A stretch of DNA of 29,115 nt, from positions 1 through 29,115 of IMG/VR virus record IMGVR_UViG_3300017751_000144. One strand, written 5' to 3'. This document shows positions 9,611-29,033 of the stretch, one piece after another. The notes below the pieces were generated by a model. It searched no databases. It saw nothing but the letters and a program-made list of their open reading frames with translations, and had not been told where the DNA came from. Source of the stretch: a virus. Position 1 is the stretch's first letter. Every line of letters begins with the position of its first letter. The position numbers and the translations under genes are program-made.

Positions 9611-9792
9611 TAGTTGAAGGATACATAAGAAAAGAAGCCGGCGTTGTCAACACTGATATATCTGCTTTTAGATCAGCTAAGGCAAGAATTGAACAGACTA
9701 GGACGATTCAGTCACTAGAGGCTCGACTAAATACTTTAGAAGAGGTAGTACAGTCACTACAACAAACATGCAAAGAGATAACAAATGAGTAG
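9607..9792 (+). CDS. Small coiled-coil protein (61 residues)
   Basis: An unrecognised short protein. Residues 18-61 are strongly helical, with heptad-like hydrophobics (IEQTRTIQSLEARLNTLEEVVQ) that predict a coiled coil. The N-terminus, YIRKEAGVVNTDISAF, contains no signal peptide. The start ATG overlaps the upstream stop (ATGA), and the stop region overlaps the next start by 8 bases. The gene is therefore embedded in a translationally coupled chain between the DUF4815 protein and the S74 fibre. An oligomerisation partner or assembly factor for a trimeric fibre is a reasonable inference, not demonstrated. Reality is supported by the perfect spacing with both neighbours. Confidence 0.75.
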   Translation: MIVEGYIRKEAGVVNTDISAFRSAKARIEQTRTIQSLEARLNTLEEVVQSLQQTCKEITNE

Positions 9793-11041: not shown

Positions 11042-12460
11042 ATGGCTATCACGTCCGCAGATCCAGATAATCTACCGAACACTCCTAAGCCTGCTCTCAG
11101 TTTTGGAATTGCGGCAATAGGTACAGATCCAGAGGCAGACGGAACTCAAAGCTTAAGAGTAGAATTTCCATCTGAAAGTGGTACTGGAGGTGACACCGCC
11201 GCAACAAGTGCAAAATTAAGCGAATATTATCTTGGTTCAGGAGTGATACCTAGAAAGCCAGTTCCTGTAGGATCAACCTACACTTACGGAGCTGATAGAT
11301 TAAAAGAGTATAAACCAAGCACCCAGTCTTTCCTGAATGGACCTGGTGATGTTGTCAATGAAGCTCCTTCTAGTTTAGATTATGTTAGAAGGGTAACTGC
11401 CGCCGGTGCCGCCAGTTCTACAGGAATAGCCGCTGGTTGGAACGAAGGCGATCTTCTCTTTGCTTATAATTACAGTACACAGAATGCTAATGATTATTAC
11501 GGATACAGTTTCAAAATAGCTAATGGAACTATAGGTGAAGAATACGAATATAACAACTTCATGTACACAAACGGCGCAGATGCAAGCGCAGTTCCTATAC
11601 TCTTTACGACAGCCATAGAGATATCAATTGTCGTTGGTGGCGAAGGTGGCCAAGAGCAAATTGAGGATACATATTGGCAGGCAATACCTGATGATAAAAC
11701 AGCACAGTTTAATGTTCTTTTCGACAGATATTATATTAAGAGGCGAGTTATAGCGGCTGGTAACGAAGATGCACTGACTCCTATAAACTCTACCGTACCT
11801 GAGGCGAATCCTGATGCTAATGGAAGACCTAGGAATGCTATTAGCTTTTCAAATCTATATGGAACAACAAGGTTTGTAAGCGAAAATACTGTTGTAACAG
11901 GACACGACTCAACAAATTATGGTACTATAGGTACGAGATACAACTATATCCATAATTCTTATCCGACAACGATATCACTTGATGGTCAGCAGACGAGAAG
12001 TGGCAATTTCTCAGCAACAAGTACGAGTAATGCAGGCACATGGAGAACCGCCGTAGTTCCAATGAAGACTGTTTATGTTGATCCAGCTGTATATCTTTCG
12101 GGAACTAAATTCAAGTGGCCAATAATCACGTATCGATGTGCTGGTGATGCCGATCCTGGCGGTCGAAGAGTTGACATTAAAAATGTAGGAATCAAGATAG
12201 CTCATTCAGACGGTACTGGCGTAGGCTTTGCGAGCGACTCTAGTTTCGTATTAACAGGCGCTGATGGACAAAACCTTTCCACTGCCAATCCTCGAACTAT
12301 AAATTCCTCTGGCACATTTTCAGCAAACACTAATAAAACTGGAACTTTTATAATATCTCTAACCTTTAATCATTATCAGACAATCGCAACTGCATCTTAC
12401 GGTGACCCTGATCTTAATGTTAAAGTTGACGATTTTGTTATTGTGTGGGAATCACTATAG
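11042..12460 (+). CDS. Unrecognised 472-residue virion protein, probable fibre or baseplate component
   Basis: I do not recognise a family. The product is rich in Gly, Ser, Thr, Asn and Tyr, lacks membrane segments and signal peptide, and ends in a VKVDDFVIVWESL strand-like tail, in keeping with the beta-rich structural proteins around it. The N-terminal 60 residues are low in hydrophobics (SADPDNLPNTPKPALSFG). The ATG follows the stop of the S74 fibre with no gap, and the Shine-Dalgarno (AAGGAAAAG) lies within that gene's last codons, so the two should be co-translated in a fixed ratio. It is the last gene before a promoter-containing gap, closing the first transcription block. A partner of the S74 fibre (tip or adaptor) is one possibility, based only on coupling. 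Confidence 0.7.
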   Translation: MAITSADPDNLPNTPKPALSFGIAAIGTDPEADGTQSLRVEFPSESGTGGDTAATSAKLSEYYLGSGVIPRKPVPVGSTYTYGADRLKEYKPSTQSFLNGPGDVVNEAPSSLDYVRRVTAAGAASSTGIAAGWNEGDLLFAYNYSTQNANDYYGYSFKIANGTIGEEYEYNNFMYTNGADASAVPILFTTAIEISIVVGGEGGQEQIEDTYWQAIPDDKTAQFNVLFDRYYIKRRVIAAGNEDALTPINSTVPEANPDANGRPRNAISFSNLYGTTRFVSENTVVTGHDSTNYGTIGTRYNYIHNSYPTTISLDGQQTRSGNFSATSTSNAGTWRTAVVPMKTVYVDPAVYLSGTKFKWPIITYRCAGDADPGGRRVDIKNVGIKIAHSDGTGVGFASDSSFVLTGADGQNLSTANPRTINSSGTFSANTNKTGTFIISLTFNHYQTIATASYGDPDLNVKVDDFVIVWESL

Positions 12461-12522: not shown

Positions 12523-15500
12523 ATGACTAAAAAATTTAGCGAACTAAGTCCGATTACGACTCCGGCAAACGGTGATCTGTTTGCCCTGACGGATACTTCC
12601 GCAACTGAGTCTAAAAGGATTACGTTCGAAAGCCTGAAAGTGGCAATGATTGATGAGTCTACTTTTAACTATGCTACATTAATAGCGAGTTTAAACGCTC
12701 ATGATCCATCAAGTAGTGGTGTAAACGGTCTATATGCTACCAGACTAAATGTAGCAGGAGAGTATTACCCAGGATCTCACTTTCTATCGTATGCCAACAT
12801 AACAGGCAAACCTACACTTCTATCAAACATAGGTGCTACTGGTGACGCCGCAACAACAAAGCCTACTTCAACGCTTAATCTAGAACAGTTTGATAACACT
12901 ACAGGATTCTTAAGATTCAATAGTGATACTAATGATATAGGTTGGTATGGCAGTAGTACTGTGATTATGTCTACTTCTAATTTAGGAGAAGGCACTAATC
13001 TATATTACACTGATGAAAGAGCAAAAGCTAATTTAGTAGCTAACTTTGCAGAACAATTTAATATTTACAATAGCACGTTTGATCAAGGCGCTGTACGAGA
13101 TAGTGTCTACGGCTTAGAAGGTACTTGGCGGGATATCAATGTTTCTGGAGCACAGCATCAGTCTAAAAAATTCCGTATCACTGGAAATTCTGCTTCTTCA
13201 ACTAGGGCACAATTTCAAGTAGGACAAGTTTTAAGATTTTATGGAGCATCTACTCTATTCTCAGCTATCGATCAATCTGCCACACTAGCAGTGACCGTTC
13301 AAGGCTTCACAGAGAATTCTTCCAATAAAAAAACTGGAACGATAGCGGCAACATACTCATATAAGATAGCAGAGTTCGATTTAGAGAGTGGAGAAATTAG
13401 TCCCGTAGGTGCCGCAGTTACAAAAACTATTTACGTACCTTCAACTGGTGGCGCCGCTAATGTGGCTGATCAGTTTAACACTTCTCACTTCATTAGATGT
13501 AGCTTCACGGCAGTACCTGCCGATCGTGGTGTTGCAGTATACAGAAGAATAGGAACAAGTGGTGATTACAAACTAACTGCTGTACTTGGTAGAAAAGAAG
13601 TAGATGCGGGGTCATGGATTGATTATCAAGCATTCGATTACACTTCATGGTCAGGCAAAAACTCTACAGATAATACATTCACTAGCATCGTTCACTTTCC
13701 TCTAATTGCATCTAGTTCTTCTAGACGTGGGTGGGTAGATAAGACCATCACAGCCATCAATCAGAATACGAATGACTTTGACTTATCGGTAGATGATTGG
13801 GTGTTCGTTAATCCCAGTGTAGGCGGAGATCATACGGCACAAGTGTGTCACAATGACACTTCTATAATTCAGAACGCTATTACCAGTAACTCAGCAGTAG
13901 GAAAGAAGAGTATTGTTCTTAACGCTAAGACATACAACTCATCTCTTTTATCTATTCCGAATAACTTTGGTCTAGTTGGAACATCGTATATTACTAAGAT
14001 TAAAAAGCTTCCGTGGACAGGTGGAGAAGCAAGCGCATTGAACGGTAAATTTATTGTCGCTCAAACTCTAACGGGAGCGACTTCTCTTTCAATAGTTGGA
14101 GTTGATATTGACGGCGTAGCGCCTAATCAGTTCTTATGGCCAGACTCTACAACTGTTAATAGAAACTATCTTTTAGACTTTGGTATCAACTGTAGCTCTC
14201 TTCTTCTAGATAGAGTTAGAATTACAAATGCACCAGCCGGTGGCGTGTATGCTACTAGTCCAGTTGAGTTAAAGATTAATACAAGTGAAATTGTAGATAG
14301 TGCTACCACTGATAGATACGAATACAGTCCTTTGATTGCAGATTCTGGCACAGACACTATGATCACAGGCAATAGATTTCAGAACTATACAGACTATGTT
14401 GATGTATCAGTAACCAATAAAGGCATTGTTGCCAATAACGTAGTTAATAACTGCGGTAGCGGATTGTTTGTTTACGGTTCAGTATTCTTTGTATCGTCTC
14501 CTAACGTTCTTATGGGACCTGCACAAGAATTCTTACCAACTCCAGATATTTTAAATTCGGAATACGATCTCATTAATATCGACCTTTCGGAGGCTAGGGC
14601 AGCTGGCGATGACTATGATTCACCAGGACATGTATATCAAGAAGATGGTGCTGATTTTGACCTAGACGCTTCAGCAGGATCTATAAAAGATATTACTCAT
14701 CGTGCATTCTATCTTCAAAAGACTGAGCAAGGAGTTGAAGAAGTTTATGGCACAACAACAGTTGCAGGAAACTTCCAGGTTACGAGTCCTGAAACTAGAT
14801 ACACTATCTTAACGTTGGGTAATACTACTCCAGCACAATGGAACACAGCCGCTGGAACAACCGGTAAAGTATATTCAGTTGGTGATACATTCACAGCATC
14901 AGCCGCTGGAACAGGAACAGGAACAGCAACGAGTGGTGGAGTAGATACTATTCAAATGATTGACGTTGCTAAATCCGTAGCACAAAGAAAAGCTGGACAA
15001 TTCGCATTTGTGATTCCAGTTGCTACAGTTAATGCAATTAAGAACGCAGGAAACATAGTTGCTATCGGTAGCTTTGTTATCGGACAATCTTATACTATTA
15101 GTGTTCTAGGCGTTCAAACTACGCAAGCACATTGGAACACTGTCGCAGGAACTTCTGGAGTTACGTACTCAGTAGGATCTAATTTTACCGCAGCCGCTGT
15201 AGGAACAGTTGGAGATGGCACAGCTAGAGATGGATATCTCAGTGGAATCGGTCAACACTCATATAGTAGATTGAAGGCCGCTAACCCTCTACATGAAGGC
15301 ATCGGTTGGTCATCTACATTCAGAAATGAAGTTTCATGTGGTGTACCTACAGTTGGAGCAGATCCTTGGGCTGTAGATGCTACTAATGGTACAGATCCTA
15401 TATATACTGTTAGCGTAGAAAACTTATTGTATGCTTCAATTGGAAAAAGAGTTAAGTTTTCTAATCATACAGGATGGCAAAATCCTGGCAATATTACTTT

Positions 15501-15678
15501 TGGCACAATAACTGAAATATCAATTAACGGAGCGACTTACGCAGTGAAAATTAAATTTAAAGGAGCTGGAGGCGGTCAAGTGCAAGCTAACGCTGTTTCA
15601 GAGGGTCTATTACCTGGTGTCGGTGGTACGTTAAATATAATCGATAGCTTTGTGATGGCACAAGGAAGGATAATCTAA
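12523..15678 (+). CDS. Tail fibre with pectin-lyase-like beta-helix domain
   Basis: A 1051-residue fibre protein. The N-terminus, FSELSPITTPANGDLFALTDTS, is a common phage-fibre attachment segment. At about residues 160-170 is SNLGEGTNLYYTDERAKANL, a motif frequent in marine phage fibres. From Asn444 the pattern NDTSIIQNAI...GKKSIVLNAKTYNSSLLSIPNNFGLVG resembles the entry of a right-handed parallel beta-helix (pectate-lyase fold), and the repetitive strands continue to roughly residue 680. Two GxxYxI...GT module copies follow (14800-14940, 15082-15234). The helix could bind or cleave a surface polysaccharide, but I see no catalytic residues I can name. The promoter and AAAGG Shine-Dalgarno upstream support the chosen ATG. 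The stop is one base before the next gene. Confidence 0.8.
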   Translation: MTKKFSELSPITTPANGDLFALTDTSATESKRITFESLKVAMIDESTFNYATLIASLNAHDPSSSGVNGLYATRLNVAGEYYPGSHFLSYANITGKPTLLSNIGATGDAATTKPTSTLNLEQFDNTTGFLRFNSDTNDIGWYGSSTVIMSTSNLGEGTNLYYTDERAKANLVANFAEQFNIYNSTFDQGAVRDSVYGLEGTWRDINVSGAQHQSKKFRITGNSASSTRAQFQVGQVLRFYGASTLFSAIDQSATLAVTVQGFTENSSNKKTGTIAATYSYKIAEFDLESGEISPVGAAVTKTIYVPSTGGAANVADQFNTSHFIRCSFTAVPADRGVAVYRRIGTSGDYKLTAVLGRKEVDAGSWIDYQAFDYTSWSGKNSTDNTFTSIVHFPLIASSSSRRGWVDKTITAINQNTNDFDLSVDDWVFVNPSVGGDHTAQVCHNDTSIIQNAITSNSAVGKKSIVLNAKTYNSSLLSIPNNFGLVGTSYITKIKKLPWTGGEASALNGKFIVAQTLTGATSLSIVGVDIDGVAPNQFLWPDSTTVNRNYLLDFGINCSSLLLDRVRITNAPAGGVYATSPVELKINTSEIVDSATTDRYEYSPLIADSGTDTMITGNRFQNYTDYVDVSVTNKGIVANNVVNNCGSGLFVYGSVFFVSSPNVLMGPAQEFLPTPDILNSEYDLINIDLSEARAAGDDYDSPGHVYQEDGADFDLDASAGSIKDITHRAFYLQKTEQGVEEVYGTTTVAGNFQVTSPETRYTILTLGNTTPAQWNTAAGTTGKVYSVGDTFTASAAGTGTGTATSGGVDTIQMIDVAKSVAQRKAGQFAFVIPVATVNAIKNAGNIVAIGSFVIGQSYTISVLGVQTTQAHWNTVAGTSGVTYSVGSNFTAAAVGTVGDGTARDGYLSGIGQHSYSRLKAANPLHEGIGWSSTFRNEVSCGVPTVGADPWAVDATNGTDPIYTVSVENLLYASIGKRVKFSNHTGWQNPGNITFGTITEISINGATYAVKIKFKGAGGGQVQANAVSEGLLPGVGGTLNIIDSFVMAQGRII
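14800..14940 (+). repeat. Beta module GxxYxI...GTxF...GTGT, copy 2 of 4
   Basis: This encodes RYTILTLGNTTPAQWNTAAGTTG then VYSVGDTFTASAAGTGTGTA. It is clearly related to the next copy 140 bases downstream (QWNTAAGTTG versus HWNTVAGTSG; YSVGDTFTA versus YSVGSNFTA), so an internal tandem duplication in this fibre is likely. Confidence 0.7.
14908..14925 (+). repeat. Three tandem GGAACA hexamers
   Basis: GGAACA occurs three times in a row, encoding Gly-Thr three times in the glycine-rich turn of module copy 2. Slippage here would keep the frame and add or remove Gly-Thr pairs. It may simply be a low-complexity codon pattern. Confidence 0.6.
15082..15234 (+). repeat. Beta module GxxYxI...GTxF...GDGT, copy 3 of 4
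   Basis: This encodes GQSYTISVLGVQTTQAHWNT, then AGTSGVTYSVGSNFTAAAVG and GDGTARDG. It is the closest relative of the copy at 14800-14940 in the same gene, and a more distant match lies at 21644-21778 in a downstream gene. Confidence 0.7.
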
Positions 15679-15679
15679 T

Positions 15680-18600
15680 ATGTCAAGTATAACAAATGTA
15701 AATAATAACGCAAGTGTAGTCAACGTTGGACGTACTACACCCGTTTCTCCTGGTGTACAGCCCGCTTCTAAATCGATTCCAGTTGTAATCGCTTCTGATC
15801 AAACAGCAATACCAGTTGAGGAACAAAATAAAGTACAATCGGAAGTCGCACTTTCTCTCTTGGGTATTCCACGTGCTGAGGTTGCTTTGGGCATCTTCGC
15901 AGACGTTAACACATATGATGTTAACCCGACAGAATGGTCCTCTTCTCCGCAGTATCACATTACTGGTCACGGCATTCAACATTTGCCCACAGAAGCTGGC
16001 GCACTCGTAGAAGCACCTAGAAACAAAACAGCAGTTTTGACATCGAAGCGTTTCTTCAGATATCAGCCTGGTCGTGTGTCTGCCGCAACGTTTGGTGTTA
16101 AGTCAACTGTAAGTAATTCTGATTTTGCTCAGAACCCATCTATTAGAAAGTTTGGTATATATGATAACTTTGACGGATACTTCTGGGAAACTAGAAACAA
16201 TTCGCAAGAAGATAACTTCTCTGTAGTTAGACGTTCACAGTCATTAACTAAAGGTCCTTCTTCTCCAACTGGTATTGTAGGTGCCCCTCTTAAAGGTGGA
16301 GCTCCTGCTCAGACGATAGGAAGAACTCAGTTTGATGACTATCGCATCATCGGTAATGGTGCAAAAGAAGGTACACTTCCTAGCACACTTCTAGTTAAAG
16401 ATCGTGAGTTAATTTCTACTAATAGATTTACAATTATTAATACTGCCATGGCTGCTGTTGTTGCCGATAACGCATCTTACTACGCTGATCTAGCTACATT
16501 ACTTGGTGGCACTGCCACTGCGGCACTCATGGAAGAAAAATGTAAGCGGGATCTAGACTATTGGGTTGGCTTTTACATATTAGATATGGAGTGGGGCGGT
16601 ACTGCACACACTAAACTCAATATCACTAACTATGGCGGTGCTTTTTTACCTAATATTCCATTATATGAACAGCCAGCACACACTGAACTGAAGGCCGCAC
16701 TCATTGGATTCGCTGGACTATCTACTGCAGGTATTAATAAACTTACTGCACTTACAAACATAACGAATGCTGCCTTTAATAGAACTGTTGGACAGAGTAT
16801 ATTATTACAGTCTATTAGTGATAGTGATTATGGTAACAAAGGTAAGATTGATACTATCTTTGATACTAAGTCTCATTACTGGGCATACCACGTAGCTGTT
16901 AAAGATATTAGCGGTGGTACATTATCATATCAATATCCTTCAGATTATCCTTACAGTGAAGCTGAGTTGATATACAAATGTCAAAGAGATATTGGCTACA
17001 TCATCGGCGGATATAAAAATGACATCTCAGGTGGTGGAGACGCAGAAACGAAGTATAACATGTCTATGTACTTCAAGGGAGGAAGAGAAGCCACTGTCGG
17101 TGTAGCGGGCACACCTGGATTTGGAATGTCAATCTACTCACAAAACGCTGGCGGTGGATCTAACCCAGTACAAGCAGAGATAGATAGACACACGCACTTA
17201 AAAAGCACTATTCTCGAAGACCTCATTGGTGCTTCAGGTTCAACTACGAACGCAATCAGTGGTTTGGGATACACATCTTCATCAACGGAATATGTCAAAG
17301 CAAGTGCTTTATCGACTAGAGTTATTGCTAACTTCAGCGAAGAAGACACTCAGCAGATGGATAATAGCGGTGATAGAGGATTTGCTGGCAACATGGTAGC
17401 AATGCGAGATGGTATTATACTTACACATTCCGCAGTTTATGATCCTCAGTTGCTCAAAGATATCGAACAAATTAAAACTGTATCTGATACTGATAACCAA
17501 TTAAAACTCACTAAAGGACATGTAGTATTCAACGCACATGTCAAAGTTAAGACTGCTGTGCCATCTGTAAGCGGTAGTACAGGTCTTGCCGCTGATACAG
17601 TTTATAAAGTCAAAAATGTTGTTGGACCAAAGGGTAATGAGTTCACGCTAACAGATGAAGCTGGCGTTGCTCAGACTTTTGCTGTTGCTGATGTACCTGC
17701 GAACTTCTATGTTGAAACAGTTGTTCCTTTCATCTTCCCTAAAACAGGTCAAGCGGGTTATGTGTCAGACCGAAATAATGGATATACGGGTTATGATCCA
17801 GTATCCTATCGAGCAGGATTTACGCCAGCGTTGAATGTAGACGGATCTAATGATACTTTCCCAAGGGGAATGGTATTCCCTTACATGTACGCAATTGATG
17901 ACAATCTTATAGCTTCAGATTCGTCTACTAGTTTACGAGTAGGCTATATCAACACTGCGGAAGATATTTCCACCGCCGCCGGTTTGACTATAGTGTGCAA
18001 TCAGATTGACCAAGTAAACTTTGATCCAGGATACGTGACTTGGGTAAGAAACAATGTCAAGCCTGAGTATTGGGGCGTATACGATTATCGTGTACCTAGA
18101 TCAAGATTCAGCCATGATACGTTAGACGGCAGAACAGAGGTAACTAACCCTCCATCAAAAGACAGAGTGTTCAGTGACGTAGCGACTGGCGAAACTGGTA
18201 CTGCAAGACCAGGACAAAAGTTTAAGATAGGCGGTATTGCTCAGAATATGACTAGCTTATATAACTTTGACTTTACTAAAGTTACTATGCTTAAGATTGA
18301 ATTCTCATGGTATGGAGCTGTTGGTGCATTGTTCTTAGCATATGTTCCAGTCGATAATGGCGAAGCAAGATGGGTAAGAGTGCATCATCTACGTGCTTCT
18401 AACCAATATAAGAATGCTTCTTTGGGTAATGCGACACTTCCTATTACGTATACGACATACGGTGGTGGAGATCAATATTCACTAGGTGATGGGGAAGATC
18501 AAAACTTTATCGATAGAGGATATGGATCACAATCACACTCTATTGTTAAGTACGGTGCTTCATACTACATCGATGGTGGCGATAGAGGTACTGTTCGTCT

Positions 18601-19705
18601 ATACAGTCATAATAATGAAGACACTCAAGATGCTTACGGTAAGCAGTGGATGTTCAAAGACAGTAGTAGCTATAGTGTATCTGGAGGCCGACCTTCGCTT
18701 CTCGTTAATAATACTAACTTAACGACTGGTACTTCGGCTGGGATTGCTGTGAGTAATCCATCAGGCGCAGATTGGTACGCATCAAGCGCACCGGATCCGT
18801 CATTCTTTATGGGAGCTAGACTAAAAACCTCAAACAAAACTGATCAGAACATTAAAGTTATCTGGGCAGATAGCACTAGAGTATATCTAAGTGGTGTTCC
18901 TAACGGCACTCCAACTGGAGTAAAACTCCTCGTAGATAGAGCAAACGCTACTTATAATCTTGAGACTAAGCAAGTTATTCTTAGCACTCAACAATCTAAT
19001 GCTGTGCGTAATAGAGTTCAGGTTTATCCTACAAAACTCTCTGCTTCTAACTTAGGCAACAATCCAGTTCGTATGAGATTTAAGAAGACTCCTATATTCC
19101 AAACTGACACAGCCTACGCTGGCACATTCACATTAGATGCTCCTTACACACTCACTGCCGCAAACGAGCCATTGAGTTCTGTTGGAGTAACTGAGAGTGG
19201 TGGCGCTGGAACATACTTCGACAATAACGAAAGTCTTTTTGGATGGTTCGAAGCGTTAGTGGATTCTGATGCGATAACAGTGTTTGGTAGATTATATAAA
19301 GTCTCCGATGAGTACTACTTCGAACTCCTAGAATCTTACAACGGTACCATTGAGCTAAAAGCTGGTGTGTTCTTGCCCGATCTTAGATTTGAAGCAGATG
19401 GAGATAGTATCAACCAAGAAAGCATAACCAAAGTGTCACAAGAAAAGGAAGGATTGAGTTCAATTAAAATTACGAATGATACTGTAGTTCCTATTCCAGG
19501 AACCGGTACTAACGTAGCGACTATATACTTACAAGCGGGAACAGAACAACTCGACCTAAGTCCTTACTTTGATTACAATAAAGAATATCTATCATTCCCG
19601 CTTACGGACCAAGCAGATAGTCTTTATTTTGCAGTTGACTCTGACACATCAGCAGGAGATCCACCAGATCAAGTAAGTTTGGGTTGTACGTGGGAAGAAC
19701 AATAA
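15680..19705 (+). CDS. Giant virion structural protein with FRYQPGR module (paralogue A)
   Basis: A 1341-residue protein. The N-terminal part has PVVIASDQTAIPV, then SEVALSLLGIPRAE...FADVNTY (from residue 54), FRYQPGRVSAATFGV at 126-140, and a VVRR segment. The C-terminal part has LKIEFSWYGAVGALFLAYVP (from 872) and KYGASYYIDGGDRGTVRL. All these are matched in the next gene, so the two are paralogues. Between them this protein carries about 600 extra residues (roughly 232-860). That insert includes two copies of a KCxRD...YxxG...GGxAxTKxN unit anchored at Cys288 and Cys434, a repeat I associate with structural proteins of marine T4-like phages. The role is presumably a baseplate-peripheral or fibre protein; no enzyme motif is visible. 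The start has a strong Shine-Dalgarno, AAGGAAGGA, ten bases upstream. Confidence 0.8.
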   Translation: MSSITNVNNNASVVNVGRTTPVSPGVQPASKSIPVVIASDQTAIPVEEQNKVQSEVALSLLGIPRAEVALGIFADVNTYDVNPTEWSSSPQYHITGHGIQHLPTEAGALVEAPRNKTAVLTSKRFFRYQPGRVSAATFGVKSTVSNSDFAQNPSIRKFGIYDNFDGYFWETRNNSQEDNFSVVRRSQSLTKGPSSPTGIVGAPLKGGAPAQTIGRTQFDDYRIIGNGAKEGTLPSTLLVKDRELISTNRFTIINTAMAAVVADNASYYADLATLLGGTATAALMEEKCKRDLDYWVGFYILDMEWGGTAHTKLNITNYGGAFLPNIPLYEQPAHTELKAALIGFAGLSTAGINKLTALTNITNAAFNRTVGQSILLQSISDSDYGNKGKIDTIFDTKSHYWAYHVAVKDISGGTLSYQYPSDYPYSEAELIYKCQRDIGYIIGGYKNDISGGGDAETKYNMSMYFKGGREATVGVAGTPGFGMSIYSQNAGGGSNPVQAEIDRHTHLKSTILEDLIGASGSTTNAISGLGYTSSSTEYVKASALSTRVIANFSEEDTQQMDNSGDRGFAGNMVAMRDGIILTHSAVYDPQLLKDIEQIKTVSDTDNQLKLTKGHVVFNAHVKVKTAVPSVSGSTGLAADTVYKVKNVVGPKGNEFTLTDEAGVAQTFAVADVPANFYVETVVPFIFPKTGQAGYVSDRNNGYTGYDPVSYRAGFTPALNVDGSNDTFPRGMVFPYMYAIDDNLIASDSSTSLRVGYINTAEDISTAAGLTIVCNQIDQVNFDPGYVTWVRNNVKPEYWGVYDYRVPRSRFSHDTLDGRTEVTNPPSKDRVFSDVATGETGTARPGQKFKIGGIAQNMTSLYNFDFTKVTMLKIEFSWYGAVGALFLAYVPVDNGEARWVRVHHLRASNQYKNASLGNATLPITYTTYGGGDQYSLGDGEDQNFIDRGYGSQSHSIVKYGASYYIDGGDRGTVRLYSHNNEDTQDAYGKQWMFKDSSSYSVSGGRPSLLVNNTNLTTGTSAGIAVSNPSGADWYASSAPDPSFFMGARLKTSNKTDQNIKVIWADSTRVYLSGVPNGTPTGVKLLVDRANATYNLETKQVILSTQQSNAVRNRVQVYPTKLSASNLGNNPVRMRFKKTPIFQTDTAYAGTFTLDAPYTLTAANEPLSSVGVTESGGAGTYFDNNESLFGWFEALVDSDAITVFGRLYKVSDEYYFELLESYNGTIELKAGVFLPDLRFEADGDSINQESITKVSQEKEGLSSIKITNDTVVPIPGTGTNVATIYLQAGTEQLDLSPYFDYNKEYLSFPLTDQADSLYFAVDSDTSAGDPPDQVSLGCTWEEQ
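16541..17335 (+). repeat. Two protein-level repeats of a KCxRD...GGxAxTK unit
   Basis: Within paralogue A, residues 287-323 (KCKRDLDYWVGFY...WGGTAHTKLNITNYGG) and 433-469 (KCQRDIGYIIGGY...GGGDAETKYNMSMYFKGG) align, about 146 residues apart. Each is followed by a helical HTxLKxxxxxxxG segment. The nucleotide sequences have diverged, so this is an old duplication. Confidence 0.7.
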
Positions 19706-19708
19706 CTC

Positions 19709-22700
19709 ATGCCAAAGCAGATAAAACTTGGACTGGATAAAGTACCTGCTCCAGTTACGAAGCAGTTTACTCAGCTTATCGACATTGAAGGTAACCTTCT
19801 TTTCGATGCCGCAGGTAATCCAGTTGTAACAGAAGACGAAGCAGTACTTGGATCTTTTTCCAAGTCTGCTTCTGCAACTTCTATATTTTCTAATAACTAT
19901 AATTCTGATAAGCCAATATCAGTTCCTATTGCTGAACAATTTTCTGGAGAATCAGAAGTCAGTAGTTCGATACTTGGTGTGCCTCGTGCAGAAGAGCAAT
20001 TAAGTCTTTTCGCAGACGTTTCGACTTACGGTTTAGATGAGGAGAACTGGAACTATTACACGTTTTCAAATTCTACTTATCCAGGAGAATGGTATCGTAA
20101 ACAGAATCCAGTTTTCGGCAGAAGATTTGATCCTAAGTTTACCGAAGAAAGTTCAGAGCAAGCACTATCTATCTCGACCTTTCCTAGTCAGTATAACTTT
20201 CCAGGAAGTACGATAGCAGAAAGGCGAGAAGCGCCTACTGCTAATATGCAAGCCTACATGAATTTCATAGCCATGGGCAAGTATCTGTATACAATATTTA
20301 TCGATGTCAATCCAGTTTTCGCCAAAGCTAATTTTTTAGATACTACTATCAAAGTAATATCTTCAGGAGAATTAGAGTTTGATACTACGTCAAGCAGTTC
20401 GTTCAGTACTAATGGACTTTCATTTAGCAACGATGCCAATTTTCACGATGTAGAATATGGAGATGACCTTCAAGAATCTTTCGATCAGATAGAAAGATGG
20501 ACTTATATGTACGATAGAATTGTAGTGGGAGATGCAAGTTTTCCCACAATTCTTAACGAAGAGAAGTCCCGAAAATTCAAGTTAGAGTATGATTCTATCA
20601 GAAGATTCTTATCATCTAAGTCACAGCCTGGCGGTTCATCTCAAGCAACAAAGTTTGCTATTCTTGAAAGTAAGAAGACTTTCAGGTATCAGCCTGGTCG
20701 AGCAAGTGGATTCACGTTCGGTGTTAGACAAGAGACTGACCCATCTTCAAACGTAAACACTATCGAATGGGGATGCTCAAACGATACAGACGAATATATG
20801 TTTCAGTTAGTTGGTTCTAGATTTAACATTGTTCGTAGAAGTGTAATCAAGTTGCCAGATGATCTTCTATTGAAACAAGGACTGGAAGTAAGTGATCAAT
20901 CATCATCTGCTATTGAGCCAAAAGGCGTAGGCATTCGTGAGGCGATGTGGGAAACAGTAATACCTAGAACCAAGTTCAATGGAGACAGTCTTCTCGGTAA
21001 CGGTAAATCAGGATATATTCTATCATTCGAAGATGTAACTATGTACAAGATTGAATTCTCTTGGTATGGAGCGATCGGTGCCAAATTCTATGCGTATGTG
21101 CCTTCTTTGGTTGGAGATGCACGTTGGGTATTAATGCATAGATTAGTTATTGAGAATGGATTAGGAAAACCCATTCTTAAGAATCCAGACTTCAAATTCA
21201 AATATATGATCTTCACTGAAGATAATGCCACAATGCAAAAGCCCGTATCTCTATACAAATATGGTAGTAGTTATTATGTAGACGGAGGAGATGAAGGCAC
21301 TATTAAGTTGGCAACTACCACAGTAGACAGCAAAGACTTTACACAACGAAGTCCCATTCTAGGAATCTTGCCTAAGCAAAAAATATTCAATCAAGATGGT
21401 GAAGGTCTTACCAACTTTAAGAAAGCCTATCCATCTACGATGTCAATATCTAGTGATATTGATGCTAGAATTGATGTTGAGGATATTAGTGGATCTCCTG
21501 ATGGAGTACACTTCAACTTTTCTCCATCTCTACACAACGGAGTACATGCATTATCAACGACACTAGACTTTAGATTTATAGGCAGTGCTGGATCACAAGT
21601 AGATATATTAAGTGGACCAACATTAATCGCCAGTAACTTTCTTGAAGGCACTAAATATGAAATAGTGACTCCAGGAAACACCAACTGGACAGACATAGGA
21701 TCTGCCAATGCATCCGTCGGTACTAAGTTTATTAAAAATGCAGTAGTCGCAACAGGTACCGGAACAGCTAAGAAGGTCAGTTTAGGCATAGAAGACGATA
21801 ATGCACATATAATTGCAGACGGAATTTATAACGCTTATGTTGACTATGACTATGATCCTGTCGACCACGAATCGTCTAGTATCCGAAGAAGAAATAGTAG
21901 TCAAGTCTTGATTACAGATTCTATTAGAAAGTATGAAAAATATGATGGTACAGTTGAGGATACAATCAATAGTCCTACATTTACTGGTAGACTCTCTAAC
22001 TATCATGCGTTAGCGGCGTCAACTGTTCCTATCTACGGCAATAATTTTAAAATACATTTCTTGAATCCGTCATCAAAAGATAATAGTAGACACTTTGCAG
22101 AATTCGCAATATCTGTCACATCAAAGCTTCCTATTATCGACTCGACGGATAATAACAAGCTAAAATTTACTGATGATGCAGGCGTCTCAGAGCCTTATGA
22201 CATATATGGAGAACTTCATCAAGAGTATGCATGTGAAGGTACTCCTATAAACTACTCAACTAAAGCTGAAAGATATGAGTGGGATCCTGGATATTCTGAC
22301 ATGTTTATGGTAGATAACAGAATACCTTCTCCACTTGGAGCAGACTCTGGATATATATCAGCCGTAAAGGGTGAAGTGCGAGTAGTAAGTTATTCGGTAG
22401 AAAGTGTAGCCGAAGGCACAGGAGACTTTGCTGGTAAATGGAAAATAACTTTTGCGGGAGGTGCACCATCTACAAGCTTATTTACTGTAGATAGTTCTGG
22501 CAACATCGTCCCAGAAAGTACTGAAATTGGAGTAGCTAGTGAAGGCATAGGAGTATATTATACAACTCTTCCAGAGCAAGGCGATGACGGTAAGTCCTTT
22601 GCTTATGTATATCCAGATCCAACTGATGATGGTAGTGGTCCAGGATCAAGAACTATTACGAGCATTCAAACTAAAACTATAACACTTACTCACGATTGGC

Positions 22701-23197
22701 AACTTGACCCTGCATTGAATGGCGATAGCTTCACTAAATCTAAAGCAGTAAAGTTCAATGCACAGCCTTTGTATCTAGTAGTTGGCTTAAAAGATAATGC
22801 AAAAGTAAACAACATCATAGTAGAAGAATTTACTGCCGATCAAGTACTCACGCATACTCCAGTCTTTATTAAAGATGCTCCCAACTTAACAGTAGTCGGA
22901 TCAGGATCTTCGAGTAACGTACTCTCTCCTTCTGCGTTTCAAGCAGGCGATAGACTTTCTAGTATTAGATTTGATGATCAGTGTTTGAATCCATTAAGAC
23001 CTGGAACTAAAATATATTCGCTGTTCGTAAAGGGCGGGGTGCCAGAGAAGTTTGACTTGTCTAACATCTTCGGCAGAGATAGAAAAGGATTAGCTAGAGG
23101 ACTACTAAATAATAGTGCAGTATATCTCACTGCATCAGCCGTAGATGGAACATCTGTCGGCAATGTAGAACTAACTATCACAGTGAAGGAACAGTAA
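19709..23197 (+). CDS. Giant virion structural protein with FRYQPGR module (paralogue B)
   Basis: A 1162-residue paralogue of the preceding gene. Shared blocks are SEVSSSILGVPRAE...LFADVSTY (from residue 82), FRYQPGRASGFTFGV (325-339), an FNIVRRS segment, PRTKFNGDSLLGNGKSG, YKIEFSWYGAIGAKFYAYVP (from 447) and KYGSSYYVDGGDEGTIKL. Here the FRYQPGR and WYGA blocks are only about 124 residues apart, against 748 in the neighbour. Instead, about 200 extra residues (roughly 115-315) precede FRYQPGR. A beta module copy is at 21644-21778. The C-terminal 500 residues are beta-rich and not recognised. Only 3 bases separate it from the previous stop, and its own stop shares one base with the next start (TAATG), so it belongs to a coupled series. 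Virion structural role inferred; no catalytic motif seen. Confidence 0.8.
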   Translation: MPKQIKLGLDKVPAPVTKQFTQLIDIEGNLLFDAAGNPVVTEDEAVLGSFSKSASATSIFSNNYNSDKPISVPIAEQFSGESEVSSSILGVPRAEEQLSLFADVSTYGLDEENWNYYTFSNSTYPGEWYRKQNPVFGRRFDPKFTEESSEQALSISTFPSQYNFPGSTIAERREAPTANMQAYMNFIAMGKYLYTIFIDVNPVFAKANFLDTTIKVISSGELEFDTTSSSSFSTNGLSFSNDANFHDVEYGDDLQESFDQIERWTYMYDRIVVGDASFPTILNEEKSRKFKLEYDSIRRFLSSKSQPGGSSQATKFAILESKKTFRYQPGRASGFTFGVRQETDPSSNVNTIEWGCSNDTDEYMFQLVGSRFNIVRRSVIKLPDDLLLKQGLEVSDQSSSAIEPKGVGIREAMWETVIPRTKFNGDSLLGNGKSGYILSFEDVTMYKIEFSWYGAIGAKFYAYVPSLVGDARWVLMHRLVIENGLGKPILKNPDFKFKYMIFTEDNATMQKPVSLYKYGSSYYVDGGDEGTIKLATTTVDSKDFTQRSPILGILPKQKIFNQDGEGLTNFKKAYPSTMSISSDIDARIDVEDISGSPDGVHFNFSPSLHNGVHALSTTLDFRFIGSAGSQVDILSGPTLIASNFLEGTKYEIVTPGNTNWTDIGSANASVGTKFIKNAVVATGTGTAKKVSLGIEDDNAHIIADGIYNAYVDYDYDPVDHESSSIRRRNSSQVLITDSIRKYEKYDGTVEDTINSPTFTGRLSNYHALAASTVPIYGNNFKIHFLNPSSKDNSRHFAEFAISVTSKLPIIDSTDNNKLKFTDDAGVSEPYDIYGELHQEYACEGTPINYSTKAERYEWDPGYSDMFMVDNRIPSPLGADSGYISAVKGEVRVVSYSVESVAEGTGDFAGKWKITFAGGAPSTSLFTVDSSGNIVPESTEIGVASEGIGVYYTTLPEQGDDGKSFAYVYPDPTDDGSGPGSRTITSIQTKTITLTHDWQLDPALNGDSFTKSKAVKFNAQPLYLVVGLKDNAKVNNIIVEEFTADQVLTHTPVFIKDAPNLTVVGSGSSSNVLSPSAFQAGDRLSSIRFDDQCLNPLRPGTKIYSLFVKGGVPEKFDLSNIFGRDRKGLARGLLNNSAVYLTASAVDGTSVGNVELTITVKEQ
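21644..21778 (+). repeat. Beta module GxxYxI...GTxF...GTGT, copy 4 of 4
   Basis: This encodes EGTKYEIVTPGNTNWTDIG then ASVGTKFIKNAVVATGTGTA. It fits the GxxYxI..xGxTxWxxIG...GTxFxA...GTGTA consensus shared with the fibre encoded at 12523-15678 and, more loosely, the gene at 1-2451. Confidence 0.65.
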
Positions 23198-25662
23198 TGC
23201 CATTTAGAGGTCTAAACGTACAACTAGCACTAAACGATGTCGATTCTGCTTCTACGGCTCTTCGGAACTTAGGACTCGACCAAAGAGACTTGGCACTGAT
23301 CTCTGGTTTAGCTACGGGCGTACAAGTTCAGCCCGATGAACTGCACACTCTTGCAGGTCTCGTAGTAGATCAGAAAAAGGAGTTGGCCGCTTTAGCTAGA
23401 TCGTCAACAACAGTAGGATCAATACTAACGAGTCTTACTGACATTGGACAACCTTTAGATTTTAATCTTGAAATAGATAATCAGATTAATGCCGCTGCCA
23501 TCAAATACAAATATCTAGACTACTCCAATAACACAATGAAGACTGCTGATATATCCACGTCACGTGTATCATCTTGGTCGACAATAGGCACTTCTATTTT
23601 GTATGGCGGTGAAGTTAAAGTCACTGGTGATAGTATAACTCTCGACAGTTTAGGCACAAGTACCGCTCCAATCGCCAAAGCATTTAGAGCAGAGGTTCCT
23701 ACTCATAAAATTGGATTGAAAGTCAACGGGTCTGTTGAAGAGTTTTATGCGATGAAAGGAATTCCTTTAAAGTTTGACGCATTCTTTAGAAATGCAAATT
23801 TCAGACATGCCGTGACTTCTATAAGTGATAGTGCCGGCATTGTTCCTCCTGTTTGGAGAGTCACAAATAAGGCTGGAGGACAATCATATAATACTGGAGA
23901 TGCAACTGGATCTATTGGAGCTGGTAGTGTTGGATCTCCTGCACAATATTCATTCAGAGATAGTTCTAGTAAGGCTCGCACAGTTGAGTTCTTCTATAAC
24001 CCAGCGAACATTAACGAACTGGGCATGGCTAGCATAAACTTAACTACTTGGACGAACGTAGGTCTAGATAACTTACGTAAACTCGATATATCTCAAAATG
24101 ACTTTTACGAACTACCTAAGTTTGGAGACTCAAGTAGAAACGGAGATAGTCTTGCGGTTACGCTAGAGCAGATCGTGCTTACAGGTAATAACCTTTCAAG
24201 GGCAAAAGACTCTGCTGGCGTAAGTATTCCTGCCAATACGCAATTGAACACGCTTCCTCTCACGCTGACCCATTTGACGATGAACGGAGTATTCAGTGAT
24301 TCTACCACCATTGATTTAACTGACTACACACAATTAACTAATTTGAATATGAGTACATACTACGCTAGAAATGCTCAAAGACGTATGACTGGAGGAACAG
24401 TTACTCCAAAAACGTATCATAACGCAACTCTAGGTATTGTCAATTATTCTATATATCATCAACCTTATTCTCAACTTGCTAATGGAGTTTGCTCAAGCCC
24501 TAGATTGAACTATCTATACTTTCCTTGGTGTGGCGTGAATGCAAAAGAGGGCGGTGGTAATATAACCATAGCAAGTCCAGTCATAACATCATTTATTTCT
24601 TACGGTAATAGTCACAACGTAGTTAATATGTCGGGTAAAAATAACCTTGGCAATTATATTCAAGCATATTCTAGTCCAGGCTCAGATAAAAGTTTGCAAA
24701 ATAAATTTACTGGATGTTCAGCACTCACTCAAATATACTGCTATGCATCTGGAGGAATCACAGGTGATATAGGAACAGTTGTAAAAGATCAAGGTCTTAC
24801 ATCACTAAGCACTCTAGATGTTAGATACACTGGAGTTACTGGAGAACTAAGAGATGATAGCTTCAGTCAAGCAAGTGCGCTAGTCCATTTTAGAGTTTCT
24901 GGAGGAAACGTAGGCAGTGGAGTTGCGGCTGCCGATAGAGACTTTTGGGGAACTACAGATTCTATCAACAACAACTCATCTAACGGAGACGTATTCAAGG
25001 ACTGTGGTAACTTAAATTGGATATACTGCTATCAAGCTGGAAACGTAGGTGGACCATTACCAGACTTTTCTCGTAATCCAAATTTACGAGGAATATACAT
25101 ATATAATACTGCTATTAATGGCACTTTACCTAATCTAGTAAATAATCAAAGGCTTTACTATCTGAGATTGAATTCATCTCAACTGAGTGGCACTATCCCT
25201 ACTTGGTCAACAAATGCACTAAGTTACGTATTCATTAATAACAATAACTTAAGTGGCACTATACCAGCACTACAGACTCCTTATCTATACTATTTGTATG
25301 CTCAGTCTAATAACTTTTCTGGTAATTTGCCAACGTTTGCTGGTGCTGTAAGACTTCAGAGACTATATCTTAATAGTAATTCGATAACTGGATATACTTC
25401 AGAGGCATTGAAATATAACACAAGTCTAAGCATTATAGATTTAAGCAACAACAGTCTTCCTTCATCAGCAGGTATTCCCTTGATCGATGACCTGTTTGAT
25501 AACTACGGATTGAATCCTAGAAGTGGAGTTAGTGTAAACTTACTAGGTAACAATGGATTAAATAGATCAGATATAGTATCTCAGAATGAAGGCGAACAGA
25601 GTCCAGCTTCAAAGCTCGCTTTTCTGGAACAGTACTGGACAATTCTGCTAGATGCAACTTAA
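23197..25662 (+). CDS. Leucine-rich-repeat virion protein, putative receptor-binding fibre
   Basis: An 821-residue protein. Residues 1-60 are helical and carry ALRNLGL (21-27), a motif shared in position with the two following genes. Residues ~60-285 are beta-rich. From about residue 290 (NLRKLDISQND) to 760 there are leucine-rich repeats, most regular at the end. Repeat leucines fall at 606, 630, 653, 675, 697, 720 and 744, a period of 22-24 residues. Units read LYYLRLNSSQLSGTIP, LSYVFINNNNLSGTIP, LYYLYAQSNNFSGNLP, matching the LxxLxLxxNxLSGxIP class best known from plant receptors. A capping helix, ASKLAFLEQYWTILLD, ends the protein. There is no signal peptide, anchor or enzyme domain, and the gene sits among fibre genes, so it is probably a virion adhesin. 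The Shine-Dalgarno is GAAGGAA; the start overlaps the upstream stop by one base. Confidence 0.85.
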   Translation: MPFRGLNVQLALNDVDSASTALRNLGLDQRDLALISGLATGVQVQPDELHTLAGLVVDQKKELAALARSSTTVGSILTSLTDIGQPLDFNLEIDNQINAAAIKYKYLDYSNNTMKTADISTSRVSSWSTIGTSILYGGEVKVTGDSITLDSLGTSTAPIAKAFRAEVPTHKIGLKVNGSVEEFYAMKGIPLKFDAFFRNANFRHAVTSISDSAGIVPPVWRVTNKAGGQSYNTGDATGSIGAGSVGSPAQYSFRDSSSKARTVEFFYNPANINELGMASINLTTWTNVGLDNLRKLDISQNDFYELPKFGDSSRNGDSLAVTLEQIVLTGNNLSRAKDSAGVSIPANTQLNTLPLTLTHLTMNGVFSDSTTIDLTDYTQLTNLNMSTYYARNAQRRMTGGTVTPKTYHNATLGIVNYSIYHQPYSQLANGVCSSPRLNYLYFPWCGVNAKEGGGNITIASPVITSFISYGNSHNVVNMSGKNNLGNYIQAYSSPGSDKSLQNKFTGCSALTQIYCYASGGITGDIGTVVKDQGLTSLSTLDVRYTGVTGELRDDSFSQASALVHFRVSGGNVGSGVAAADRDFWGTTDSINNNSSNGDVFKDCGNLNWIYCYQAGNVGGPLPDFSRNPNLRGIYIYNTAINGTLPNLVNNQRLYYLRLNSSQLSGTIPTWSTNALSYVFINNNNLSGTIPALQTPYLYYLYAQSNNFSGNLPTFAGAVRLQRLYLNSNSITGYTSEALKYNTSLSIIDLSNNSLPSSAGIPLIDDLFDNYGLNPRSGVSVNLLGNNGLNRSDIVSQNEGEQSPASKLAFLEQYWTILLDAT
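25000..25440 (+). repeat. Regular leucine-rich-repeat tract
   Basis: Seven consecutive repeat units of 22-24 codons encode the C-terminal part of the LRR array. Two neighbouring units share near-identical coding for LSGTIP (starting at about 25186 and 25246), spaced 60-66 bases. This spacing could allow homologous unit gain or loss while keeping frame. Confidence 0.75.
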
Positions 25663-25671
25663 GGAAAAGAT

Positions 25672-26622
25672 ATGGCTCAAGGATTTGTAAGAGACTTAAA
25701 TTTAATAGAAAGTAGCACGGGTGCGCTTGATACTGCCTCTTTAAATAACTTAGGCGGTGCAGGCATTAAGAACGACCTAATGCTCTTTGACGGAAACTTT
25801 AAATTCTTATCTAAACTGGTACCCGCTGACTATAGCGTTTCAGGTGATACTGTTACAGTCTCAGGAGAAGGCAAAGTAGCGTTCTCTGACGGAACTAAGA
25901 TATCTATGGACGGTGCTGGGTTTTCTGGAGAGAGTGTATTTGAATACGAAGTTTTTGACTCGAATGGTATCGATAAGTTTCGAGTAAAGGATGGATTTGG
26001 ATCAGTGACTCCAGCGGGCACACTTAGACGGAACGACGGCGTTTCTTTTCAGAACCTATCGAATCTAAGCAGTAAACGACTTGAAGCTAGTTCATCATCA
26101 TCTACAGGAGTGGGAGCGGATGACGGTGCTTCTGATCTTTTCAATGCGTTTAATGCGTCTGAACAAGTAGACTACATTAGCGGTCAACTAGGAATATATT
26201 ACTATAAAAGAGGAAGAATTCCCTTAACATTTGAGGATTCTATCTTTGATCAAAAAGTTACTTTCAGAGGTCAAGTGATGATCGTTGATAGTGATGCTAC
26301 AGTAAGTAGTGTTCCAGATTCTAACTCACCAGGACTATTCATCATAGATGCTAATGATCCAACAGCTACAGCAGTTAGAGCATTTAGTGATGCGAGTAAT
26401 CCTTGGGATAATTCAGTAGCAGGTAAACTAGTTACAACTCAAGCAGTATCTCAGCCAAACGTTTTAACTTTTGAGCCCACATCTTCAAATGTTCCAAACT
26501 TTATTTCTAGTGGAAGTCCATTACTCATAGATTCCGAGAACAACACACTCGCTAGTTACACACATAAGCTTCCAGTAGTCGTTAACGGCACAACATTCTT
26601 TTTACTATTAAAGAATAGTTAA
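25672..26622 (+). CDS. Virion structural protein, fibre-associated (316 residues)
   Basis: No named family is recognised. The N-terminus, MAQGFVRDLNLIE, followed by SLNNLGGAGIKNDLMLF (residues 23-39) resembles the start of other marine phage structural proteins, and its SLNNLG matches ALRNLG and ALSNLL in the flanking genes. The middle (FNASEQVDYISGQLGIYYYKRGRIPLTF) and the C-terminal hairpin LPVVVNGTTFFLLLKNS are beta-rich. Similar GTTY/F-type endings occur in the convergent gene. A strong Shine-Dalgarno, AAGGAAAAG, ends four bases before the ATG and lies in the 9-base gap after the LRR gene. The two may therefore act together, for example as adaptor and adhesin (inference). The stop overlaps the convergent gene's stop. 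Confidence 0.75.
   Translation: MAQGFVRDLNLIESSTGALDTASLNNLGGAGIKNDLMLFDGNFKFLSKLVPADYSVSGDTVTVSGEGKVAFSDGTKISMDGAGFSGESVFEYEVFDSNGIDKFRVKDGFGSVTPAGTLRRNDGVSFQNLSNLSSKRLEASSSSSTGVGADDGASDLFNAFNASEQVDYISGQLGIYYYKRGRIPLTFEDSIFDQKVTFRGQVMIVDSDATVSSVPDSNSPGLFIIDANDPTATAVRAFSDASNPWDNSVAGKLVTTQAVSQPNVLTFEPTSSNVPNFISSGSPLLIDSENNTLASYTHKLPVVVNGTTFFLLLKNS
26595..26618. terminator. AT-rich hairpins at convergent gene ends, possible weak bidirectional terminator
   Basis: ATTCTTT (26595-26601) can pair with AAAGAAT (26610-26616). Alternatively CTATT (26605-26609) pairs with AATAG (26614-26618) around a four-base loop. Both lie just before the shared stop region. The stems contain only one G:C pair each and no clear U-run follows, so efficient termination is doubtful. 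Confidence 0.25.
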
Positions 26623-29033
26623 GAATCACCTGTTTTAAAGGCTAATGCCTTATAGGTTGTACCGCCGTGAGTTATCTTAAGATATTTACCCGAATTATTC
26701 GGAAGAGTGCCTATTGCATTTACATTTGCACTAGGCGTCACTACTTGAAGCTTACCAAATACTAGACCTTCTACTTCTAAATTACTATTGGCAGACGGTG
26801 TCGCTAGACCTAATTCAGTACCAGCAAACGGCGGAGCAGTATTCAGCGGGATCACGCAGAACTCTTTATTCGAAGTCAATGGATCATTTGTCGATTTTAC
26901 AAAAACTACAGTACGTGCCGCTGGTAGTTCTGCTAAAAGATTACCACTCGATGGACCAGTTAAAGTTATTGTATTAGTACTTGAGTCTATGCTAGAAACT
27001 GTAGTTGAATTAGTGCCAGAAATGATACCGCTATATTGAACGAAATCGCCTGTTGATATTCCAGTTACCGTAGTTAACGTTACTCGATTCTGTCCACTGG
27101 CATTACTTCCTGATACAGGGACTGCTACTTCTCTTCCGTAAACTCCATCGCATTGTAAGTATGAAGACTTATCATCTAGTCCTCTAGATGCATACACAGC
27201 GACTATTCTATATTGACTATTGTTTATAGTGCCTCCATTCCCTAAGTAATCGGATATAGTGATTGCTCTAGGTGAGGCACCGCTTGCATCGAAAACTCTT
27301 TTTGGTTGAAGTCCAGTTCCACCAGTAGACGATATAGACATCATGATTTGATCTGGAAATACAACACTGCTTGGATCGGGATTCAAAGATACTGGACTCA
27401 TTCGATACAAGTTCTGCACCGTATTGCTAGAATATCCACCTCTGAATATACCAACTAATCCTATGTTCTTAATGAATATTACAGCCTGAGTATCTCCTAT
27501 AGAGAATGTCGCATCAGCATTAAGAGTGTCTTTAACATATGCGTAAGTGTTTCCATCTTCGTCTTCACCGCTAATAGATTCTATCTGAAATGCATACATG
27601 CTGTTGTTAGCCTTCTTAAAGACCATCCAATCACCTGAAACAACTCCTGAAAAATTAGGTGCTGATATTTTACCGAAGTTATCACGTACGGTAATAGTCG
27701 TTGGAGTAACACTGGTGTTGGATCCAGTTATGCCCACAATCTTATCGCTTAATTGTCCTGGAGGAACTATGGGCAATGATATAGTATCTAATACGGATAG
27801 CTTTGCAGTCGAGGCTTGGTTAAGCGGACTGGCTTTATTATCTTCGAAGTACTTGTACGTATATGGACCAAAAACTTGGTTCCGATCGAATGTTTTATAG
27901 TAATCTGAGAAAGGCGCTCTTTCACTATTTTCAGTTAGTTCTCTAAAGGTTTTTTCTCTGTATGCAGTGCCGTTACCTGGATCAGGATACCAATGAGTAT
28001 ATCTAACTCTTACTCTACTACCTCTTTTTTGAGATGTAAATAATATAGGAGACTGTACTTCATCAGCTCCTAACTCGAAACTGAGTGAAATATTTCCGTT
28101 TTGAATAGAGGTACTTGACGCTACGGTGAAAGTTTTATCTATTGGATCTACTGTTATGATTTCGTAAGTGGTACTGCCAACTGTAAATTTCATGGCAACG
28201 CAAGGATAGTTAAGATTCGTAGATGAGGCGCTATAGTCTGCGGTAACTACATCATTACTAGGAGCGGAAAAGGTTACAGAACTTAGAGTCGCACTAGTCG
28301 CATAAACAGATTTAATTTGTGTCCAGTTATTTTCCGTACCATCATCTACCGTGTCCTCTTCTATGATAAATAAACCAGTAGAGCCCCAATCTTGATCATA
28401 GTTACTTGAAAGGTATCCTGTCCATTGTACAAGACCATACGTATCTTGCATCTGCGGATGAAGCTTTGCTGTAAACGAGAACACACCATTATTCCAGAAG
28501 TCTAATGGTCCAATAATAGGAGTGAATGATCCTGACGTGATATCAGTGGTAAACAGTTGAGAAGACGATAGTCCTCCCAATGTAGTAGCAGTACCAGAGT
28601 TACCTGTTATTGCTCCTGTGACGCTTGATTTTATTCGGTCACTGCCGATAAAGTTACATACAAGTCCATCACCACCATTAATCCACGGAGGGTTGCCTAA
28701 AACAGATTTAAAATTGCTTATATTATCTTGAAGTGTGATTACGGGTTCAACCACTTGAATAGAGCCAGCTAAGTTTGTAAACTCTACTAGACTGCCAAGA
28801 AGATCAGCAAGATCGGTAGATTGACCGTCTTCATTCGTAAAGTCTGCAAGACCAGTATTTCTTAAACCTGACGTGGCACTGATATCTGCAACAGTAAAGC
28901 CGGATTTGATACCGTTCTCATCTAATGCAGAAGAGATGTCATCCAGTAAGTTAGAAAGAGCTTGTTGAGGATTAGTCAAGTCTACTAAATTTTTATCGGC
29001 TCTAAGTCCGAATTTGATGTACTTTGAGGTCAT
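26619..29033 (-). CDS. Fibre-like virion structural protein on the minus strand (804 residues)
   Basis: This is the only minus-strand gene in the window. The N-terminus, KYIKFGLRADKNLVDL followed by ALSNLLDDI (residues 25-33), resembles starts I associate with structural proteins of marine T4-like phages and shares the ALxNL motif with the two upstream fibre genes. GNSGTATTLGGLSSSQL (from residue 144) is a fibre-shaft-type unit. An aromatic-rich central domain (SRVRVRYTHWYPDPGNG, REKTFREL, FGPYTYKYF) and a beta-rich C-terminal half follow, ending in ITHGGTTYKALAFKTGDS. No enzyme motif or signal peptide is seen. A TATAAATA late promoter faces it at 29068-29075, about 35 bases upstream of the ATG, with a weak GGAT Shine-Dalgarno. 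Its stop overlaps that of the convergent gene by 4 bases (TTAA). Probably a further fibre or decoration protein. Confidence 0.8.
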   Translation of the reverse strand: MTSKYIKFGLRADKNLVDLTNPQQALSNLLDDISSALDENGIKSGFTVADISATSGLRNTGLADFTNEDGQSTDLADLLGSLVEFTNLAGSIQVVEPVITLQDNISNFKSVLGNPPWINGGDGLVCNFIGSDRIKSSVTGAITGNSGTATTLGGLSSSQLFTTDITSGSFTPIIGPLDFWNNGVFSFTAKLHPQMQDTYGLVQWTGYLSSNYDQDWGSTGLFIIEEDTVDDGTENNWTQIKSVYATSATLSSVTFSAPSNDVVTADYSASSTNLNYPCVAMKFTVGSTTYEIITVDPIDKTFTVASSTSIQNGNISLSFELGADEVQSPILFTSQKRGSRVRVRYTHWYPDPGNGTAYREKTFRELTENSERAPFSDYYKTFDRNQVFGPYTYKYFEDNKASPLNQASTAKLSVLDTISLPIVPPGQLSDKIVGITGSNTSVTPTTITVRDNFGKISAPNFSGVVSGDWMVFKKANNSMYAFQIESISGEDEDGNTYAYVKDTLNADATFSIGDTQAVIFIKNIGLVGIFRGGYSSNTVQNLYRMSPVSLNPDPSSVVFPDQIMMSISSTGGTGLQPKRVFDASGASPRAITISDYLGNGGTINNSQYRIVAVYASRGLDDKSSYLQCDGVYGREVAVPVSGSNASGQNRVTLTTVTGISTGDFVQYSGIISGTNSTTVSSIDSSTNTITLTGPSSGNLLAELPAARTVVFVKSTNDPLTSNKEFCVIPLNTAPPFAGTELGLATPSANSNLEVEGLVFGKLQVVTPSANVNAIGTLPNNSGKYLKITHGGTTYKALAFKTGDS

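Follow-up and report, generated by a model that had tools for sequence, protein, structure and literature searches.

What is a leucine-rich-repeat (LRR) protein of the plant type doing in a phage tail gene cluster, and does it, as the initial annotation proposed, act as a virion adhesin whose concave face binds a ligand on the host surface? The window analysed here is a 29,115-nucleotide stretch covering positions 1 to 29,115 of IMG/VR virus record IMGVR_UViG_3300017751_000144; what is shown directly concerns its sequence, fold prediction, gene order and conservation pattern. The LRR protein gene was found on the plus strand at 23197..25662 as a single ORF of 821 amino acids, the ATG of which shares nucleotides with the TAA that ends the preceding gene (TAATG) and follows an AAGGA. 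ORF, Pfam, phmmer, motif counts and an AlphaFold2 (AF2) model all confirmed the presence of an LRR protein at this position. The HMM search against LRR families returned Pfam LRR_4 (E 6e-10), LRR_8 and LRR_1, all exceeding their own gathering scores and thus placing the repeats above the family cut-offs of the plant-type LRR superfamily, and the closest PDB sequences retrieved by phmmer were plant LRR receptors (BRI1, E 2e-25). The strict signature LxxLxLxxNxLxGxIP was matched 3 times, compared to a mean of 0.0008 in shuffled sequences (maximum 1 in 20,000), and LxxLxLxxNxL 11 times, compared to a mean of 1.5. The most regular plant-type units (LxxLxLxxNxLxGxIP) map to residues 628-754 (25078..25458, plus strand). 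The LSGTIP and LSGNLP signatures of the initial annotation were recovered in part: LSGTIP occurs twice (residues 663 and 685), the third signature reading FSGNLP (residue 707) rather than LSGNLP.

The AF2 model, with a mean pLDDT of 79, displayed LRR-spaced strands from residue 272 onward, forming a curved solenoid to the concave face of which each turn contributes one strand (VIA Z 28). The LRR solenoid expected from the repeats was thus obtained, mostly at high pLDDT, over residues 268-774 (23998..25518, plus strand). It comprises ~19 turns and is closed by a C-terminal cap (residues 775-821; 25519..25659, plus strand) ending in ...WTILLDAT. The earlier count of seven regular repeats was therefore right as to their LRR nature but too low, and since AF2 shows high-confidence strands throughout 268-774, the preceding repeats described as more irregular are LRR turns as well. 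The best PDB matches of the model by Foldseek were BRI1-type ectodomains, and VIA-align against BRL2 yielded a Z of 28.4 over 485 residues with an rmsd of 5.0. Ahead of the solenoid lie an N-terminal module (residues 1-60; 23197..23376, plus strand) with the pattern GLNV..DV....AL.NLGL..DL..I.GL, a modelled helix (residues 59-79) that could be a coiled coil, the motif ADISTSRVSSWS (residues 117-128; 23545..23580, plus strand), mostly invariant in 63 N-termini and with STSR still present in cyanophage S-TIM5, and a beta-rich domain (residues ~161-267; 23677..23997, plus strand). Residues 1-150 were predicted with low confidence even with 63 sequences. Comparison of the N-terminal model with the PDB returned nothing above Z 4.7, the best value for the beta-rich domain, which was therefore given no fold.

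The LRR gene belongs to a five-gene block in the order 1341-aa, 1162-aa, LRR, 316-aa and divergent 804-aa. The 1341-aa (15680..19705) and 1162-aa (19709..23197) members, both on the plus strand, match the virion structural protein family phrog_1645; the 316-aa member immediately downstream of the LRR gene (25672..26622, plus strand) bears a weak, sub-threshold End_tail_spike match, and the 804-aa member (26619..29033) is encoded on the minus strand. These neighbouring structural genes support the location of the LRR gene in a tail cluster. The 1341-aa and 1162-aa proteins have domains in common, which suggests a duplication inside the block. Elsewhere in the window, a 1737-aa DUF4815 protein (4397-9610) was assigned to phrog_358; a gp10 label for it was dropped in favor of the DUF4815 match. 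A 418-aa protein (9785-11041) ends in a C-terminal endosialidase chaperone domain (Peptidase_S74), a domain typical of self-processing tail fibres.

Direct tblastn of the LRR protein against cultured phages and a viral-contig scan returned zero relatives; the LRR part alone retrieved just weak Listeria phage matches (E 0.2 or worse) when searched in phages, and tblastn with the N-terminal region of the 804-aa protein recovered no relative among cultured phages. Relatives were instead reached through the upstream 1162-aa neighbour, the homologue of which was directly followed by an LRR orthologue in 19/19 IMG/VR loci. An alignment search gave 80 loci, and merging of both lists by contig name resulted in 81 distinct IMG/VR contigs in which the LRR orthologue occupies the same place with the same block order. 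All five block genes were present in 90 of 99 loci, most of the others being truncated by contig ends, and Pfam LRR_4 was matched by all 19 of 19 aligned members. The LRR feature is real and conserved, and its most likely role is that of a virion adhesin or of an attachment component.

How such a protein might be held on the particle is suggested by its N-terminus, which the initial annotation had likened to those of neighbouring fibre genes. In profile-profile comparisons (hhalign), residues 1-60 aligned with the 804-aa neighbour (probability 96.9%, E 1.4e-10), whereas the module was not detected in the 316-aa protein or other neighbours; the likeness therefore holds for one neighbouring protein only. 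Since their first 60 residues are in common, we infer a common docking site for the LRR and 804-aa proteins, and the module is the probable virion attachment part. Gene position, this module and the deposition of the S-TIM5 counterpart as a 'virion structural protein' together make virion status likely.

The predicted inner surface of the solenoid was next considered as a candidate binding site. Aromatic residues (Y/W/F) occupied 17 of 60 concave strand positions compared to 35 of 482 positions elsewhere (p 7e-6). Beta strands generally favour aromatic residues, however, so that the enrichment is insufficient as proof of a binding face. Across 19 orthologues, conservation was lower at concave positions than on the back (p 0.0013); no such excess of concave variability was seen among the seven closest ones (p 0.68). 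Aromatic enrichment and long-range concave divergence fit a putative ligand-binding surface, and binding of a host ligand by the modelled concave face is plausible. The explanation that we favor, and hold to be moderately probable, is that of a core tail or baseplate-associated virion protein, the plant-type LRR inner face of which binds a conserved ligand on the host surface. The protein would probably dock on the virion through the module of residues 1-60, which the 804-aa neighbour employs as well, a helical segment and the beta domain (residues 60-267) would connect this module to the 19-turn solenoid, and the aromatic-rich inner surface would most likely bind a host-cell surface molecule during adsorption. 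That the ligand is a conserved one is probable because the LRR part is co-inherited and displays no repeat gain or loss among close relatives; strain-level specificity would be left to faster-evolving neighbours, such as a 472-aa gene. We infer in this manner the virion location of the LRR protein in the phage of the window, its docking and its ligand binding.

Conservation within a close group of nine distinct relatives (82-98% identical in the 1162-aa homologue) bears on what the LRR face may bind. Of the four block proteins compared in this group, the LRR protein had changed least, with a mean identity of 0.907 vs 0.876, 0.837 and 0.799 for three neighbours, and no indels were found in it across the nine relatives. 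Pairwise distances in the LRR part correlated strongly with those of the protein's own N-terminus (Mantel r 0.94) and of the 1162-aa gene (0.86). Fixed size, high conservation and co-inheritance suggest that the receptor is conserved or that the role is structural. The same observations, along with the strict conservation of the block, would also suit an LRR face that binds another phage protein, for instance a block product, and works as an internal scaffold or connector holding the fibres together. We regard this alternative as unlikely given that the concave strand has changed more than the back over long divergence and that the LRR domain tolerates large insertions, neither of which would be expected of a fixed internal interface; since the neighbours diverge too, however, co-evolution could partly explain the lower concave conservation.

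Whether the protein might be a host-range-switching fibre tip that changes by gain and loss of repeats, a mode of variation floated in the initial annotation, was addressed from the length and divergence of its orthologues. Complete orthologues span 788 to 1641 aa, as such a tip might. Yet the extra length of 12 long aligned orthologues consisted mainly of insertions after residues ~408 and ~656 (window numbering), some of which carry a ~42-aa non-LRR mini-domain, and the LRR protein of the close relatives is devoid of indels, so that variation by repeat gain or loss did not hold up. Across the examined loci, 119 predicted proteins hold 180 copies of the mini-domain (Y.I...GNTT...WN.IG.....VGD.FTA), which recurs in neighbouring tail genes; in the window, it is found in the gene at 12523-15678 (residues 759-800 and 856-899) and in that at 19709-23197 (residues 649-685), and looks like a shuffled decoration unit. 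Relative to its neighbours, the LRR gene was neither more divergent nor swapped, and its low divergence is hard to reconcile with a tip that rapidly switches host range. The variable gene is rather the 472-aa one (11042-12460), for which neither PHROG nor Pfam gave a match. Its conservation among close relatives is by far the lowest of any gene: it is 19-45% identical in the closest ones, compared to 53-68% for the LRR protein, which makes it the better host-range candidate. With no indels, correlated distances and low divergence, a frequently swapped or repeat-length-varying tip is very unlikely and already largely contradicted; the LRR gene is inherited as a fixed part of the block, and not swapped or resized in the manner of an ordinary host-range tail tip. 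Least probable of all is a non-virion protein encoded in the late operon and active in or on the infected host, for example in superinfection exclusion, for although LRR proteins have many intracellular roles, the gene sits among structural genes and overlaps one of them translationally, its N-terminal module recurs in another tail-cluster protein, and the S-TIM5 homologue is annotated as 'virion structural'.

The T4-like label given to the cluster is based on baseplate-wedge PHROG matches in the window, a sub-threshold Pfam Gp8 match, and T4-type gp23 in five relatives. No T4-type gp23 was detected in the S-TIM5 or S-TIM54 genomes, and the gp8-like family gave a short partial match only; the block therefore appears to occur in at least two structural backgrounds, although divergent gp23 or gp8 homologues may escape detection. 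Host assignment was attempted and none was named: psbA was present in only 2 of 27 relatives, two MAG contigs fell in unrelated bins (Cellulomonadaceae and Opitutales), and the gp23 of one relative was ~60% identical to those of phages of Sinorhizobium, Methylophilales and Pelagibacter, and of cyanophages. Late-promoter-like sites TATAAATA were no more numerous than expected by chance.

Among known proteins, the plant ectodomains of BRI1, BRL2 and HAESA have LxGxIP repeats and the solenoid fold in common with the phage protein, but identity in structural alignments is ~17-19% and the N-terminal module is phage-specific; a predicted fold in common with plant LRR receptors shows no common function. 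Listeria internalins, which bind host ligands, and Leptospira LRR proteins also have an LRR solenoid (structural matches at Z 22-24), but these bacterial surface proteins differ in repeat subtype and N-terminal parts and are not virion proteins. In a coral-mucus vibriophage, an LRR-like protein was proposed in the tail module at only 10% HHpred probability and is absent from the sister species; that paper refers to studies of LRRs of double-stranded DNA viruses (PMC10945359). The LRR of the window, in contrast, is clear and conserved throughout. Other phage LRR proteins appear in viral structure annotations, so that LRRs in phages are not new as such; among the papers searched on LRR phage proteins, S-TIM5 and its relatives, no description of this conserved LRR block was found.

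The nearest known system is that of the cultured cyanophages S-TIM5 and S-TIM54, which have the same five-gene order and the LRR gene of which was deposited as a 'virion structural protein'. The S-TIM5 protein (AEZ65694.1; UniProt H6WFW9) was the top viral structure match of the LRR protein, and it and its S-TIM54/61/66 homologues are syntenic beside phrog_1645 proteins, have a homologous N-terminus with STSR and display LRR Pfam matches. By hhalign, their homology to the present family extends over the N-terminus and the first LRRs (99.4%, E 2.5e-21); pairwise identity is low and the S-TIM homologues are longer (1193-1217 aa vs 821 aa). A related protein had already been deposited, albeit in a record that does not name it LRR. 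Should the protein prove to be a virion adhesin, a fold known chiefly from plant and animal recognition receptors would serve as a conserved attachment device in an environmental phage group, cultured cyanophages included, and the occurrence of this block in genomes of both the T4 and the S-TIM5 type would indicate a portable adhesion module. We only tentatively entertain the broader and rather doubtful idea of a widespread LRR-centred five-gene adhesion block, common to the S-TIM5 lineage and to phages whose capsids are of the T4 type, that recognizes a conserved ligand through a first-contact mechanism unlike known fibre folds; for this block, S-TIM5 represents a culturable system.
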